Source: Pirellula sp. (GTDB taxonomy: Bacteria; Planctomycetota; Planctomycetia; Pirellulales; Pirellulaceae). From it: a DNA stretch of 38,995 nucleotides. Below the pieces are notes generated by a model. It did no database searches. It saw only the letters and a list, made by a program, of their open reading frames with translations, and was not told the DNA's origin. Made by a program: the position numbers and the translations under genes. Below, one piece after another: positions 32,531 through 38,995 of the stretch (position 1 is the first letter of the stretch; each line of letters starts with the position of its first letter). The stretch lies in NCBI GenBank assembly GCA_021736575.1, contig JAIPFP010000028.1:1-38995 (forward strand), written 5' to 3'.

Positions 32531-35500
32531 TTAGCGGCGAATGGTTGCAGGTTTTTCTTCTGCCAATTGCTCTTGAGGTAGATAACCGACAAAACACAAC
32601 AGATCGCGGATCTCGGTTGGTGTCAGTGTGTCCAACAGGCCTGCTGGCATTGCCGAGACCTTGCTCGGAAGCACTTCGTCGATTTCGCTTTCCTGTAGGG
32701 TTATCTCCTTGTTCTCGTTCGTTCGAACCGTAAGGCCCTTGGCCGTCCGAACAACGATTCCTGTGTGAACTTGTCCATTGATTGTCAGGATCTTCTTGGA
32801 GGCATACTGATCGCTGATGACGTGAGACGGAAAAAGTGTTGACTCCAGGAATTCGGTCCGCGTGAACCGCCTCGTAAGGCTTGAAAGATCGGGACCGAAA
32901 CCGCTGCCGATCGCGTTCATTTTATGGCACGAAGAGCACCGAGCTTTGGCGAAAATTTTTGCACCATTTTCTCGGGCTCCGAATCGCCCTTGTTCGCCTG
33001 CCAAAAATTGTTCCAGAAAACCAAGCGACCAGCGAGGTTGCTCCGTCGCCGTTGGCAGGACGGCTGCGGGTAAATCCGGAAATCGCATTTCATACCACTT
33101 TTGCCAAACAGGCATGGGTGAAAGCTTTTTGTTCGAAGGGACCTCTAACTTTTCACCGGTCCAGAACTCCATCAATTGGACGGTCGGTGTTGGGTCGACC
33201 CCCGCTTCGAACAGTTTGCAACCTTGCAAGATCGTTTGCCGCAGAGCCTCAGGATCCTCGGTTGCAACGTCAATTTTCCGCAGAGCATCACAAACGTCGG
33301 CAACCGCGAATGAATCCAACAAACCAATCGATCGGACCAGATAGTCCCAATTGCGTTCATCCGGCGATTGCGCTAGAGCCAACGCGATGCTAGCTCGACG
33401 GTCCGGGCTCTTTCGCCATCTCTGTCTTAAGTGCTCAATCGCCGCTTCGTCTGACTGACGCGATAACACTGCAGTTATCCCGGTTTTGAGTCGCTTGAAG
33501 ACGTCCTCTTCCAATCCGCCTTTGTCGATCGAGGTATCGAGTGCAATCAGCGTTGCGATTTGTTTGGACGACATTTGTTCGGGCGCTTTGAACAGCGCAG
33601 TCAACGCTGCATTGGGATACTTTTCACCCAAATCGAGAATTCGAATGGCTTCGTCTTCCGTCAGGTGATCGGCCAAGAGTTGCGACGTCTTCATTACATA
33701 AAGTTGGTAGGAGCTACCCCCCTTGGCCTGCTGGGCTGTTTCCAAAAACTGCAAGACTGACATTCGCTCGACCGATGTCCAATCATGCGGAATCATGGGT
33801 AAGTGCATCGAAATCAACATGCGTTCAGGCATAGGAACATCGGACTGCAAATACACAATCGCTTGGGGAACGATATCGCATTGCACGTGCGTTGCGAGTC
33901 GGATCAATTCGCAATTGATTGCCGAATTGCCTGCAGGGAATTCTTTTTGCACAAGCTCTTGGATGCTGCCAAGGCTGTTTGGGTCGATGGAACTGAGATG
34001 CAACGCAACTTGCAGAACTCGCAACAAATCGACAAAGTCGGCGTCGCTTACGAACCCTTTGGAGAGTCGCGTAAGAGTATCTGCCACGAGAATCGCGTTT
34101 TGATTGGTGGGTTGTGATGCCATCAACGCTAAACCCGAGTTCACAGCTAAGCGAGTCGAATTGTCGCCGAGAAAATCATCTTTCCAAGAGTCATTCGGAA
34201 TGAGCGTCAGCGCGAGTCTACCTGCAAATCGCTCCTCACGAAGACTGCTCGTTAGCAATGGCTTTAACTCGGCAGGCAAACATGCAACGCCCAGTCTCAC
34301 GATCGACTCGCTTGCAGCGATGCGAACGTTGGGATTGTCGTCGCGAAGCAATTTGCGCAATTGCGCTGCCGCGTCGTCATCGTTTGCATGAAGTCCCAGC
34401 AATCGAGCGCATTTCACTTGCACCATTTCGCTTGAGCTGTTGCTCAATTCGATCAACATGTCCGTCGATGGTATAGGGCCGAGCAATTGCATCAGATCGA
34501 GTGCCTGCATACGATAGCGTGCGGGATTTTCGCCGCTATACGCGACCCCTGCAATCTGTTCGGTCCACTCGGAGCCAAGCTCTTTTTTGATGATCGCAGC
34601 CGCTTGCCGTCCGTATGCCGAATAGATTTGTGGTTGCCGAATGGCTCGAGTGATACCGGTTCCCAGGTCCGAAACTTGGGCTGGAATATCGCCCACCCAG
34701 CGAACTCGATAGATGCCGCCATCCGTACCGCGTCCACCGGTTGAGAAGTATAGCCAACCATCCGGACCCACTTCTAAATCGGTCACGTTCATGGGCGACC
34801 CAACGACGAATTCTTCGGCATTGACCTTCGATTTGTCAGCGCTCTCAACATTGAGCGAGAGTATTCTTCCCTCAGACCAATCTGCCGTGAATACGGTCCG
34901 GTGATATCTTGCCGGGTACTTAAAATGTGTGTAGGTGGTTATCCCGGTTGGCGAGCCTCGCCCGGTGGTGGCAATGGACGGCAGGCGATCCAAGTAGTAC
35001 TCAGGCCAATTGGCCCAACCGCTTCGCCATCCAAATTCGCCACCTTCGCCGACGCGAAACACGCTCGTGGCTCGATGCCACACCGCGCCGATGTCCGCTT
35101 CCATGTCGCTGTCATGAACGTATAACGCTCCGGAAGGATGGAAAGCTAAGTCATAGGCATTGCGCAATCCGCCTGCGACGATTTGTGCGTTTTTTGTGGC
35201 AAGTTCGAGTCGTACCACCGTGCCACCTGGAGCCTTGACCCCGTCAGCATGCCCCCCTGGATCTTGGAAACGAGGCTGAACTAGATCCCCCTCGTAAACC
35301 AGCCGATACGGGCTACGTTCGTCGACTGGGGTTTCCAATTGTGCTTGATTACCCACTACAACATAGATGCAACCATCTGGACCAAAGGCTAGTTGGTGCG
35401 GACCATGTTCCCCCGGTGTCCCTTTAAACTTTAAAAGAACTTCCGACCTTTCAAGCGTGCCGTTGCGATCTTCGTCAATCAAACGATACACTCCAGAACC

Positions 35501-36547
35501 GTCCGGTCCATCACCTGTCACATAGACATCCCCATTCAGCGGCAGAATACCTTGTATGTTCTCGATTAATTCGCAGTAAGTACGAGACTTTTCGGGAGTG
35601 CCATCTTTATCCGCGTCATAAATCAACACCAACGGACCACCTTCTTGTGACGCGATGATGTGTCCAAACTCATTGAAGGCCATTGCCAAAACGGAACCGA
35701 TGGATGCATGCCCAATCACTTCATCTACGACGAAACCAGGTTTCGTCGTGAATCGGTCCATAGGGGGTGGGCCTTTGCTGGAATCGTAGTCACCCAGCGA
35801 GACGACGACTGGAGTTGATTTGGTTTTGCTACCGTCTGCGGATTGGGCGTCGGCTGTTTGATTGTCGGCGGTTTGATTGTCGGCGGTTTGGGCGTCGCGT
35901 TGATTAGGTACCGAGATAGGACGCATGTTCGAATCAAGCGATAGTGCATTACTCCACTTGCTATCATCGAACCGCAGCATTTGCCAATTTTGGGAGGCAC
36001 TCTTGGTCGCCTTCCATTCGTCGTCACTCACGACAATTCTCCACTTGGCACTCGTTGGCTTGAACATGAAGCCAACCTTGAGTCCGGCATCCTTTCCTAT
36101 CCGGTTGCTGACGCGAATGGCAATAAGGTTCTTTCCAGGGCGAATCGCAGTTGAAACATCGACCCGTTCCATCGTTCTCGCTGCTTTGGATGCGCCGACT
36201 TTGCGTCCGTTTACAAAAACTTCGCAAAGCTCGTTGGCTTCGAATTCAATGGTCGCTTTCTCGGTATCGGGCAAGTCCATCACGCGTCGGAAGTAAGCAT
36301 CACCAGTCCGTTGCTGTGTCTCCGAATCCGAATGCCATATCCATTCACGCTCGGTTTTTGCGGTCGGAGACGGTGGAACGCTGACCTTTCCGGAACGTTC
36401 CTGCGCGATCGTGGTCGAATCGGTCATTGCGGCAGATAGCAATACTAGCAACGTACTCAAGACGTGAGCAAGTCTATTTCGATAGGCAAACCCATGGACA
36501 AGTTGGCTTTTCGAAAAGGGATCGGACTGTCTTGGGCATAGTTTCAT
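32531..36547 (-). CDS. PVC-type dehydrogenase with HEAT repeats and C-terminal cytochrome c
   Basis: A 1338-aa exported multidomain protein typical of planctomycetes. Order: signal sequence (about 25-48); a galactose-binding-like beta-sandwich (about 60-160: IEFEANELCEVFVNGRKVG); a Thr/Ala/Asp/Gln-rich linker with repeated NQTAD; a six-bladed propeller of the PVC membrane-bound dehydrogenase family (about 260-640: PGFVVDEVI, GEHGPHQLAFGPDG, GGLRNAYDLAFHPSG, GPDGWLYFSTGGRG); alpha-helical HEAT repeats (about 690-1150); and a cytochrome c domain with heme motif CSSCH near 1203-1207 and KMNAIGSGFGPDLSSL. These proteins are thought to oxidise sugars or alcohols in the periplasm. ATG 36547 is chosen over an upstream ATG (36733) because AAGGATGG lies before it and the signal sequence follows. 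Confidence 0.88.
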   Translation of the reverse strand: MKLCPRQSDPFSKSQLVHGFAYRNRLAHVLSTLLVLLSAAMTDSTTIAQERSGKVSVPPSPTAKTEREWIWHSDSETQQRTGDAYFRRVMDLPDTEKATIEFEANELCEVFVNGRKVGASKAARTMERVDVSTAIRPGKNLIAIRVSNRIGKDAGLKVGFMFKPTSAKWRIVVSDDEWKATKSASQNWQMLRFDDSKWSNALSLDSNMRPISVPNQRDAQTADNQTADNQTADAQSADGSKTKSTPVVVSLGDYDSSKGPPPMDRFTTKPGFVVDEVIGHASIGSVLAMAFNEFGHIIASQEGGPLVLIYDADKDGTPEKSRTYCELIENIQGILPLNGDVYVTGDGPDGSGVYRLIDEDRNGTLERSEVLLKFKGTPGEHGPHQLAFGPDGCIYVVVGNQAQLETPVDERSPYRLVYEGDLVQPRFQDPGGHADGVKAPGGTVVRLELATKNAQIVAGGLRNAYDLAFHPSGALYVHDSDMEADIGAVWHRATSVFRVGEGGEFGWRSGWANWPEYYLDRLPSIATTGRGSPTGITTYTHFKYPARYHRTVFTADWSEGRILSLNVESADKSKVNAEEFVVGSPMNVTDLEVGPDGWLYFSTGGRGTDGGIYRVRWVGDIPAQVSDLGTGITRAIRQPQIYSAYGRQAAAIIKKELGSEWTEQIAGVAYSGENPARYRMQALDLMQLLGPIPSTDMLIELSNSSSEMVQVKCARLLGLHANDDDAAAQLRKLLRDDNPNVRIAASESIVRLGVACLPAELKPLLTSSLREERFAGRLALTLIPNDSWKDDFLGDNSTRLAVNSGLALMASQPTNQNAILVADTLTRLSKGFVSDADFVDLLRVLQVALHLSSIDPNSLGSIQELVQKEFPAGNSAINCELIRLATHVQCDIVPQAIVYLQSDVPMPERMLISMHLPMIPHDWTSVERMSVLQFLETAQQAKGGSSYQLYVMKTSQLLADHLTEDEAIRILDLGEKYPNAALTALFKAPEQMSSKQIATLIALDTSIDKGGLEEDVFKRLKTGITAVLSRQSDEAAIEHLRQRWRKSPDRRASIALALAQSPDERNWDYLVRSIGLLDSFAVADVCDALRKIDVATEDPEALRQTILQGCKLFEAGVDPTPTVQLMEFWTGEKLEVPSNKKLSPMPVWQKWYEMRFPDLPAAVLPTATEQPRWSLGFLEQFLAGEQGRFGARENGAKIFAKARCSSCHKMNAIGSGFGPDLSSLTRRFTRTEFLESTLFPSHVISDQYASKKILTINGQVHTGIVVRTAKGLTVRTNENKEITLQESEIDEVLPSKVSAMPAGLLDTLTPTEIRDLLCFVGYLPQEQLAEEKPATIRR

Positions 36548-37321
36548 GGCCGTTTTCCATCCTTGGAAAATGAGCAATCGTCGCAATTGCGCATTGACGC
36601 GTTGACGCGTCTTGCAAAAAATTGAGTTCAGTTTAAGTGCGGTTGGGCAACGCACATCAAGTTCGAACTTAAGAGATGTTGGTTCTTGAATGCAATAGCA
36701 ATACGTTCGCAATGCAATCATTGGGTGCATCAACCCGACTCCTCTCCTGCGGTATTTAGCCAGAAAACCTGAACGAACCGCAGCACAAGGCTGCGGGACT
36801 CAGGCAATACCACAGGGTTGTCCTGTGGATTGTTATGCTTTACGGCTACCGTATTTTGGAACAAAAGCTGCGCAAGCAAAAATTGCTGCAGATCGCTCGA
36901 TGGCAAGCGTAGTTGGTGCTGCTCGCACCAAACAAATGGGATGATTCTTTGAAGGAAAAAGCTTTTGGGCGTTCAAGCTAATCTCCCAATTCTCAGAAAA
37001 ACGATCGCATTCGAGGACGAAATCAACGCAGCGACAACTTGCCCCGCTACAACAATCGGTGTCCCTTGGAATCCTCCCTCGGAATCCGCGTTGGAAATGC
37101 GATAATTCGTAGTTGGTTCGGACCTCGTATCTTTGCAATGCAAGCGAAGAAGATCAACGCGTTTTGTCCGCTCAAAAGTGCCAATCGGAGTTCGTTGTTC
37201 GAACTGGTAATCGGTCTGGCTTTTAACTACTATTGTATTTCCCTGCAACGCTAGCTTTCTCGCGAGGCTTTCTTGCAGAGTAATCACAAAAAACGTGCAC
37301 CGATTGAATAGGAAATAGCAG
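36548..37321. other. Divergent intergenic region, no firm gene
   Basis: 774 bases between the large PVC gene (minus) and the ACT-ATPase gene (plus). It carries two hairpins, CGCAGC-ACAAG-GCTGCG (36779-36795) and CCACAGG-GTTGT-CCTGTGG (36811-36829). Minus-strand frames at 36833-37138 and 36973-37287 overlap each other and show no family or ribosome binding site, so I do not call them. This could be a junction between old chromosome and an acquired segment. An in-frame stop (TAG 37316-37318) closes the region just before the ACT-ATPase start. Confidence 0.5.
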
Positions 37322-38995
37322 GTGAAGCTGATCGGCAGAATTCAGAAAACGAACTTCCGCAAGTTCAAGCTTGAGCGAATGCACCGAACGGCACTGGGGT
37401 TACTGTCTGGGACCGAAGTTCATTTGACGCTTTTGCCAAATGTGGATAATCGAATGAACCATGTGGAATTGTTGCTTACAACCATTCCCCCTTCAAAATG
37501 GCATTCTTTGTGCCGCATCACAGCTAGAATGCACGACAAACCGGGGGCGGTCGCCTCTGCTGTAAGCGCGCTGGTTGATTCTGGTTGCAATATTCTGATT
37601 ATCGAAACCCTTACAACTGCGGGGCAGGCCGAGCATGAACTTCTCGCATTTGTGGAACCAGCAAAGAATCGCGATGCGGACGGCTTTTTGAGCGATCTTA
37701 GGAACTCGCTTCATAGGCAACTATATGCAAATCTAAATGCGGCAGATCGGCTCGTTGTTGAGTCACCACTGGTCGATGAACTGTCGGCCTTGAAAAGATC
37801 TGCACAGTTGCGATTACAAAGTAACCTTCAAGAAAAGACAACATCCTGCAACATCGATGATGTAGGTATTGACGTTAACCCAACAGAACTGACGAAGTTG
37901 TTTCCTCTCGACGCGGACGGCAAGCCAGAGATTCCAACGAGGGTTCTATGCTATTCCGACACGGAAGAAAAGTATGTATGCATGTACTTTCCGCCCGAGG
38001 ATTCGCTGCTAACGGCCATCGCAATCGATCACGAAGAGCAGCCAGGTGTGATCAGCCAATTTGCTGAGGTCTTCAAGTTTTTTGGGGCGAACATCCTGAA
38101 TTCCTATTCCAGATTGAGAAGAACAGGACAATTGGCGCAATGGTGCATCATTGTGGACATGTCAAGTGTCAATAGCATTCGAGAAGTCCTAACTGCAATC
38201 GCGGGAAAAACGAATTCATTTAAAAAATTCTCAGAGCTTTCCATCTCATATACGGAACGACTTAAGCGTAAACCGCAGACGCAAAACCCATTTCATTTCA
38301 TTGACGAGCATTTTGCAAAGGAGACTCTAGTACCTCGTGAAGAAATAATTAGTCCGATTGCAAGCTCAATAATACCGTCGAACAATCCTGTTGTGGAAAA
38401 CTTCGTCCTAAGCGGCTATTACAAAACTGGAAAATCTACCGTTTTGGAACTAGTTCGAAGAATGGCAGAAACAAACAAAAATATGGCGGTTGTCGGTTGG
38501 TCATTGAAAGGCCAACCCGTAACCCATTTCTGGCAGAATGTCATTGATTCCCTTGGGAAAGTAGTGGATGCAAATAGTAGTCTGATTGCAAATACAGGGA
38601 AGAGGCTTTCGAGAGCGGCGATAGATACGACAAAAAGTATTCAGAGTGTTCGATTTGGGATCGAATTAAAATTCAATCAGCCAGATCAGGTTTACACGTT
38701 TGCTAGGGAAGTTGCGGGAGAATTGCAACGCTTGTGTATCGAAGCCCGGAAGCTTGGAAAAGAGAGGTTACTTTTTTTAATCGATGAGGGACAAAAACTT
38801 CTCAACCCAGTTGACGACACTTCAAAAGTCGCGCTTGAGATATGGCAAGTCGTTGCGGAAGAGGTTCCGAACATAACTTGGGTCTTTTCGGCATCCGATA
38901 GATGGAAGACAAGCGATGGAAGGAGCGGCTTAGTCGCGAAATTGCACGAGCTAAGAATGACTCCATTAAGAAACACAGAAGCTTTGGCAATGTTC
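37322..38995 (+). CDS. Two ACT domains fused to a P-loop (STAND/AAA-like) ATPase, runs off the window
   Basis: An open frame of 558 codons from GTG 37322 to the window end, with no stop reached. AGGA (37310-37313) lies 8 bases before the GTG, and TAG 37316-37318 in frame excludes an earlier start. Residues about 62-115 form one ACT-like regulatory domain (MHDKPGAVASAVSALVDSGC, then NILI), and about 228-300 a second (EEQPGVISQFAEVFKFFGAN, then IL). A linker leads to an ATPase core: Walker A G365-YYKT-GKST (to 373), Walker B LLFLIDE (483-489) and a sensor-1-like strand WVFSAS (520-525). ACT domains bind amino acids or other small ligands, so a ligand-sensing switch ATPase is inferred. Codons such as ATA and AGA are frequent here and rare in neighbouring genes, suggesting acquisition. 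The C-terminal (effector) part lies outside the window. Confidence 0.8.
   Translation, partial: MKLIGRIQKTNFRKFKLERMHRTALGLLSGTEVHLTLLPNVDNRMNHVELLLTTIPPSKWHSLCRITARMHDKPGAVASAVSALVDSGCNILIIETLTTAGQAEHELLAFVEPAKNRDADGFLSDLRNSLHRQLYANLNAADRLVVESPLVDELSALKRSAQLRLQSNLQEKTTSCNIDDVGIDVNPTELTKLFPLDADGKPEIPTRVLCYSDTEEKYVCMYFPPEDSLLTAIAIDHEEQPGVISQFAEVFKFFGANILNSYSRLRRTGQLAQWCIIVDMSSVNSIREVLTAIAGKTNSFKKFSELSISYTERLKRKPQTQNPFHFIDEHFAKETLVPREEIISPIASSIIPSNNPVVENFVLSGYYKTGKSTVLELVRRMAETNKNMAVVGWSLKGQPVTHFWQNVIDSLGKVVDANSSLIANTGKRLSRAAIDTTKSIQSVRFGIELKFNQPDQVYTFAREVAGELQRLCIEARKLGKERLLFLIDEGQKLLNPVDDTSKVALEIWQVVAEEVPNITWVFSASDRWKTSDGRSGLVAKLHELRMTPLRNTEALAMF

Follow-up and report, generated by a model that had tools for sequence, protein, structure and literature searches.

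The window, by which we mean the whole stretch of 38,995 nucleotides analysed here, is contig C308 of a source genome of 353 contigs, and it ends inside an open frame that starts with GTG at position 37322 and runs for 558 amino acids to the end of the contig. The last 67 bases of the window are identical to an end of contig C258 in reverse complement, with no longer match, and when the two contigs are joined across this overlap the frame stays open to a total of 719 amino acids. The join is supported by synteny, since the sister genome G015 carries both genes flanking the locus on one contig; the same comparison reveals that the site differs in content between genomes. The first-pass annotation of this DNA had described an uninterrupted frame with its C-terminus beyond the window; both points proved correct, and a check of the adjacent sequence made the C-terminus readable on C258. 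No paralogue of the gene was found in its own genome. The features of the locus are:

32531..36733, minus strand: upstream flanking gene, divergent, with a match at E ≤ 1e-50 in 27 of 27 genomes of the genus, paralogues included
37322..38995, plus strand: twin-ACT P-loop ATPase gene, codons 1-558 of 719, the rest on contig C258
37334..37480, plus strand: tentative first AbrB-like (swapped-hairpin-like) stretch, at residues about 5-53
37508..37762, plus strand: ACT domain 1, residues about 63-147, PF01842 above cut-off and beta-alpha-beta-beta-alpha-beta in the AF2 model
37862..37987, plus strand: residues about 181-222, possibly a second AbrB-like stretch (very weak)
38009..38239, plus strand: ACT domain 2, residues about 230-306, from NF006352 on the isolated segment and AF2 secondary structure, Pfam below cut-off
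38309..38995, plus strand: P-loop ATPase, AAA_16-like below cut-off, continuing on contig C258
38414..38440, plus strand: Walker A motif GYYKTGKST, residues 365-373
38768..38788, plus strand: Walker B motif LLFLIDE, residues 483-489
38929..38995, no strand: end overlap of C308 and C258, exactly 67 bases, at both contig ends
Contig C258, L003 9866-10417, minus strand: remaining codons of the gene, the first 22 common to both contigs
Contig C258, L003 7452-9365, minus strand: AbiLi/AbiLii-like pair (AAA_21 and RloB), between the window gene and the nuo genes

The C-terminal half of the protein is the P-loop ATPase recognised in the first-pass annotation, with both Walker motifs in place and a sensor-1-like strand at residues 520-528. 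A GRQP motif at residues 582-585 of the joined protein is, we assume, comparable to the GxP motif of STAND proteins. The proposed membership of the STAND class was nevertheless not borne out: AAA_16, whose cut-off is 32.6, scored 17.3-18 bits, also for the joined protein, nSTAND5 gave 12.8 bits against 34, and the ATPase half rose above the cut-off of no curated profile. As this half lacks a curated match, the term "STAND-like" is unproven. No solved ATPase relative was found from the window ORF or from the joined C-terminus, and the AF2 model of the window ORF, which is poor overall (pLDDT 48.5) and stops at residue 558, is mostly below pLDDT 50 in the ATPase part.

Two ACT segments had been described ahead of the ATPase, and the first of them was confirmed by a curated family. 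When the whole protein was scanned, residues 66-105 reached the gathering score of PF01842 (30.5 bits vs 27), and the 120-amino-acid segment scanned alone gave 22.7 bits. The second segment stayed under every Pfam cut-off (best 16.6 bits vs 27), and its identity as an ACT domain is based on weaker evidence, namely the match of the isolated segment to the ACT-type profile NF006352/PRK08577 (5.7e-6, 26.4 bits vs a family cut-off of 140) and the AF2 secondary structure. The isolated ACT 1 segment matched NF006352 at 8e-5 (22.7 bits vs the 140-bit cut-off), from residue 21 and over profile positions 21-102, which includes part of the stretch preceding the domain. In the AF2 model the elements follow the order beta-alpha-beta-beta-alpha-beta in both units at pLDDT about 50-78. 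A profile of six first-unit sequences, the window's included, retrieved ACT chains from the PDB (best 1vr9, 3.6e-5, positions 67-120), and the PDB matches of the family profile were mainly metabolic ACT enzymes. An internal duplication is weakly supported by the hhalign comparison of unit 1 with the second unit of the window protein (probability 5.9, E 0.0065 over 31 columns).

The first-pass annotation had missed the stretch ahead of ACT 1, which we tentatively describe as AbrB-like. The only PDB chains that matched wholly within positions 6-51 of the six-sequence profile were those of AbrB, 2k1n and 1z0r, both weakly (E 0.75 and 1.5), and the AF2 model has a strand-helix-strand-strand arrangement there, mostly under pLDDT 50; Pfam gave no AbrB match. 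The sole basis for a possible second stretch of this kind is its position ahead of ACT 2 together with a strand-helix in a low-confidence region of the model.

The first unit defines a rare and divergent family with members in six of 392 genomes of the phylum, the window's own included. The protein search of these genomes with the window protein gave five matches outside its own genome, of which only G299 was kept as a true relative; L005, L006 and L007 were dropped on a reading that we take to be CCA-adding-enzyme-like, and L008 was a frame of 130 aa whose matching part is interrupted by a stop. The later relatives came from a search with G299 (G194), from NF006352 (G150) and from the unit-1 profile (G476 and G143). 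The unit-1 profile, on which the count of six is based, has four of the six members as its own rows and matches 53 of the 392 genomes at E ≤ 0.05. In that search G476 was found at 1e-11 and G143 only at 0.0033, the latter being accepted from its layout and a held-out test, and the other 47 matching genomes were judged by matched range and frame length; one of them, G445, was not counted as a member on what we take to be an aspartokinase-like reading.

The held-out test, conducted on 2813 sequences (the held-out unit, 20 shuffles and 2792 other frames), demonstrated the homology of the first units. With a profile of the five TIR-type relatives described below, the unit of the window ranked first at E 1e-13; those of G299, G194 and G476 also ranked first when held out, and those of G143 and G150 ranked 15 (1e-7) and 18 (1.8e-6), in a part of the ranking that is rich in ordinary ACT proteins. 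In pairwise comparison within the set of six, the window unit recovered the other five at nominal E of 4e-5 or better.

Several further matches were rejected. L010, from the search with G299, is not a relative and lies within a gene that is presumably phage portal-like. A two-row profile matched in three of 397 genomes of the class, where L013 was dropped from its frames and L014 from its row only. NF006352 is not specific, since it matched in 159 of 294 genomes and in 13 of 14 control genomes; among the matches listed, seven places were examined and one (G150) was kept. Ten of the 211 genomes of the order had a match and only the window's own was counted as a member: L117, L118 and L120, presumably phosphoglycerate-dehydrogenase-like, were dropped, and the seven matches that remained, spread over six genomes, were rejected by their ranges alone.

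One scan of a second contig collection found two contigs with the genes of G299 (contig C28) and G476 (contig C57), named Planctomycetota bacterium isolate IP29b_bin.26 and Candidatus Brocadia sp. WS118, and the window ORF had no match in the same collection. Plasmids gave no match to the window ORF, to its N-terminus alone or to the proteins of the five relatives, and the single plasmid match of the joined ATPase (E 3) was taken as chance. There was likewise no match among phages, searched with unit 1 of G476 only, or among viral contigs, searched with two unit-1 profiles, and 98 relatives, including 26 from the same genus, yielded no match to the window protein. No other ATPase-type member was met, so the window protein may be a one-off ACT-ATPase fusion.

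In the five relatives (G299, G194, G150, G476 and G143) the sensor is fused to a different C-terminal domain in place of the ATPase. This domain (139-163 aa as cut) appears to have a TIR/nucleotide-glycosidase-like fold, as suggested by the AF2 model of G150 (pLDDT 77, pTM 0.76) and by a Glu that is invariant in the alignment of all five. The top Foldseek matches of the model were TIR-STING (6.5e-6), SARM1 (9.6e-6), BcmB and MilB, and TM-scores were about 0.6 for TIR-STING, SARM1 and the nucleotide N-glycosidases, of which the CMP N-glycosidases matched at 4e-5 to 9e-5. Receiver domains matched with a weaker E-value than these (2.5e-4), and ThsB 8btn matched at 1e-3. None of the relatives reached a Pfam TIR cut-off (TIR_2 12.8 bits vs 28 in G150, no TIR match in the others), and the sequence profile of these domains retrieved no TIR chain from the PDB (best transaldolase, E 0.23). 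As the sequence profiles fail for TIR, the assignment is that of the one model and the Glu.

The first-pass annotation had proposed to score the surroundings of homologues for defence genes. Conflict-type or mobile-element neighbours occur in three of the five (G150, G143 and G476), and no defence gene was recognised in the frames read near G299 and G194. Two of these neighbourhoods contain:

G150, L047 1393-6563: three consecutive genes on one strand, for the twin-ACT TIR-like protein, a class III cyclase and a TIR-ankyrin protein
G476, L084 4322-4822: frame of 8xMP (octameric membrane protein family), the next one behind the twin-ACT TIR-like gene

The cyclase and TIR-ankyrin genes thus follow the G150 gene on its own strand, and the ATG of the 8xMP frame lies 7 bases after the stop of the G476 gene; the term 8xMP was not met in the literature searched on the subject. 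In G143 an integrase gene adjoins, and RPA and ParA genes are located on the same 222-kb contig. Near G299 and G194 there is, within about 8 kb, a long protein that we take to be RHS-like from its repeats (L015 3-2498 and L016 6816-12404). The proteins of the five relatives had no PADLOC match at E ≤ 0.01.

AbrB proteins are DNA-binding, and ACT domains act as sensors of amino acids. Given this general background, the window protein could be an amino-acid-responsive regulator without any role in immunity, in which the AbrB-like part would bind DNA, the ACT units would detect an amino acid, and the ATPase would remodel transcription or a metabolic complex, and the predominance of metabolic ACT enzymes among the PDB matches of the family would suit such a function. 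We find this unlikely, because a regulator of this kind fits poorly with the lack of any match in the 98 relatives and with five sensor relatives that have a TIR-like domain and differ in their neighbourhoods.

The composition of the window gene (GC 0.453, GC3 0.452) differs from that of the upstream gene (0.519 and 0.539) and of two nuo genes (GC 0.532 and 0.545, GC3 0.60), in agreement with the AT-richness relative to neighbours that had been noted before. The gene occupies an accessory site. In G015, whose flanks are 92-97% identical to those of the window genome in aligned pieces over 100 bases, the flanking genes have the same orientation and are about 2.3 kb apart on their contig, compared with a gap of about 5.2 kb by coordinates in the window genome, and other genes are found between them:

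G015, L110 3360-5038: PDDEXK_2 nuclease-family (5.3e-51) and ParD/ParE genes, occupying the window gene's site

This suggests that the site is a hot spot. In the stretches read from five further genomes of the genus (G009, G023, G016, G021 and G020) the flanking genes are not neighbours; G009 has them on different contigs and may yet have them side by side. Positions 36790-36960 of the window are a dispersed intergenic repeat with 13 places in the genome, itself included, whole or partial at E ≤ 1e-4; G015 also has a related stretch of 115 bases at this site.

Downstream of the window gene and on the same strand, PADLOC gave matches to AbiLi (4.1e-94) and AbiLii (7.9e-25), for which the Pfam families are AAA_21 and RloB, and beyond the pair lie a thioredoxin-trypsin gene and the nuo genes. 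The 500 bases that separate the window gene from AbiLi speak against a tight operon; they include a 264-base stretch with 92% identity to a piece of G015 that overlaps the end of the PDDEXK_2 frame there. The window ORF itself matched none of 5027 PADLOC models at E ≤ 1. The mobile or defence setting proposed in the first-pass annotation is supported by the low GC, the variable site, the AbiL-like pair and the TIR-like relatives.

A site that holds ParDE and PDDEXK_2 genes in G015, and a relative in G143 that adjoins an integrase and whose contig also carries RPA and ParA genes, could also indicate a mobile-element or stability gene of toxin-antitoxin-like type that has nothing to do with phage defence, the AbiL-like pair being nearby by chance in a hot spot. 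Such a gene seems to us quite improbable, since a multi-domain sensor with varying C-terminal domains would be unlike a simple toxin-antitoxin pair, and no antitoxin-like partner was recognised among the frames listed for the window and C258. Finally, the sole ATPase-type member found lies at a contig break, but a decayed or misassembled gene, in which the ATPase was fused by chance at the end of a contig, is highly improbable, because 719 codons remain open across the exact 67-base end overlap, the Walker motifs are intact, G015 has both flanking genes about 2.3 kb apart on one contig, and the break falls inside the ATPase part, so that the ACT-ATPase fusion lies within one contig.

On balance we lean towards the window gene being a conflict (antiphage) switch that is gated by a ligand and has interchangeable outputs. 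We prefer this reading because a shared sensor is combined with different outputs, the family is rare and scattered, conflict or mobile genes are neighbours in three of five relatives, and the window gene lies in a variable site close to an AbiL-like pair. The product would be a signalling ATPase of 719 amino acids, in which the two N-terminal ACT units, the first and possibly both with an AbrB-like lead-in, would form the sensor. This sensor could bind a small ACT-type ligand (an amino acid or nucleotide derivative) or a phage product, and binding would release an auto-inhibited P-loop ATPase, which may then switch or oligomerise on ATP and bring about a self-limiting or antiphage response. 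The ATPase takes the place of the TIR-like domain, and the final output would have to come from the protein's own tail or from a partner, for which the AbiL-like pair is a candidate.

An ACT-ATPase near a phage-defence-like pair, together with the TIR-like domain of distant relatives, raises the prospect of a little-known bacterial immune sensor. More speculatively, the family could represent an unrecognised class of immune receptors, in which tandem AbrB-like/ACT units sense an amino-acid- or nucleotide-like infection signal and the output is a TIR-like NAD+/nucleotide hydrolase in the majority of members and an ATP-driven switch in the window protein. If so, the ACT domain, familiar from metabolic sensing, would have a second role as an immune receptor in bacteria, the trigger would be a small metabolite and as such directly testable, and the two outputs on one sensor would make a natural pair for studying what it responds to. 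No ACT-ATPase or ACT-TIR system was found in the open-access literature searched; PMC8195603 covers other NTPase and TIR conflict systems and names the ACT domain as a structural relative of TRADD-N.

Four known groups bear comparison with the window protein. It resembles the NF006352/PRK08577 ACT proteins in that both of its units match this 136-position profile, but the segments score only 22.7 and 26.4 bits against 140, and in the window protein an output domain follows the units. Like signalling NTPases of the STAND/AAA_16 type, it has a sensing region at the N-terminus and behind it a P-loop ATPase with both Walker motifs; however, it falls under all curated STAND/AAA_16 cut-offs, its sensor consists of tandem ACT units, and no C-terminal repeats were recognised in it. 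A defence pair of the AbiL/RloB type is located downstream on the same strand, but as separate genes 500 bases away from an ORF that matches no PADLOC model. The TIR-domain antiphage proteins, which include Thoeris ThsB, TIR-STING and also the Pycsar TIR, are comparable to the five relatives through the TIR/nucleotide-glycosidase-like C-terminus suggested by the fold matches of one model, whereas the sensor of these relatives is an AbrB-like/ACT tandem, and the window protein has an ATPase where they have the TIR-like domain.
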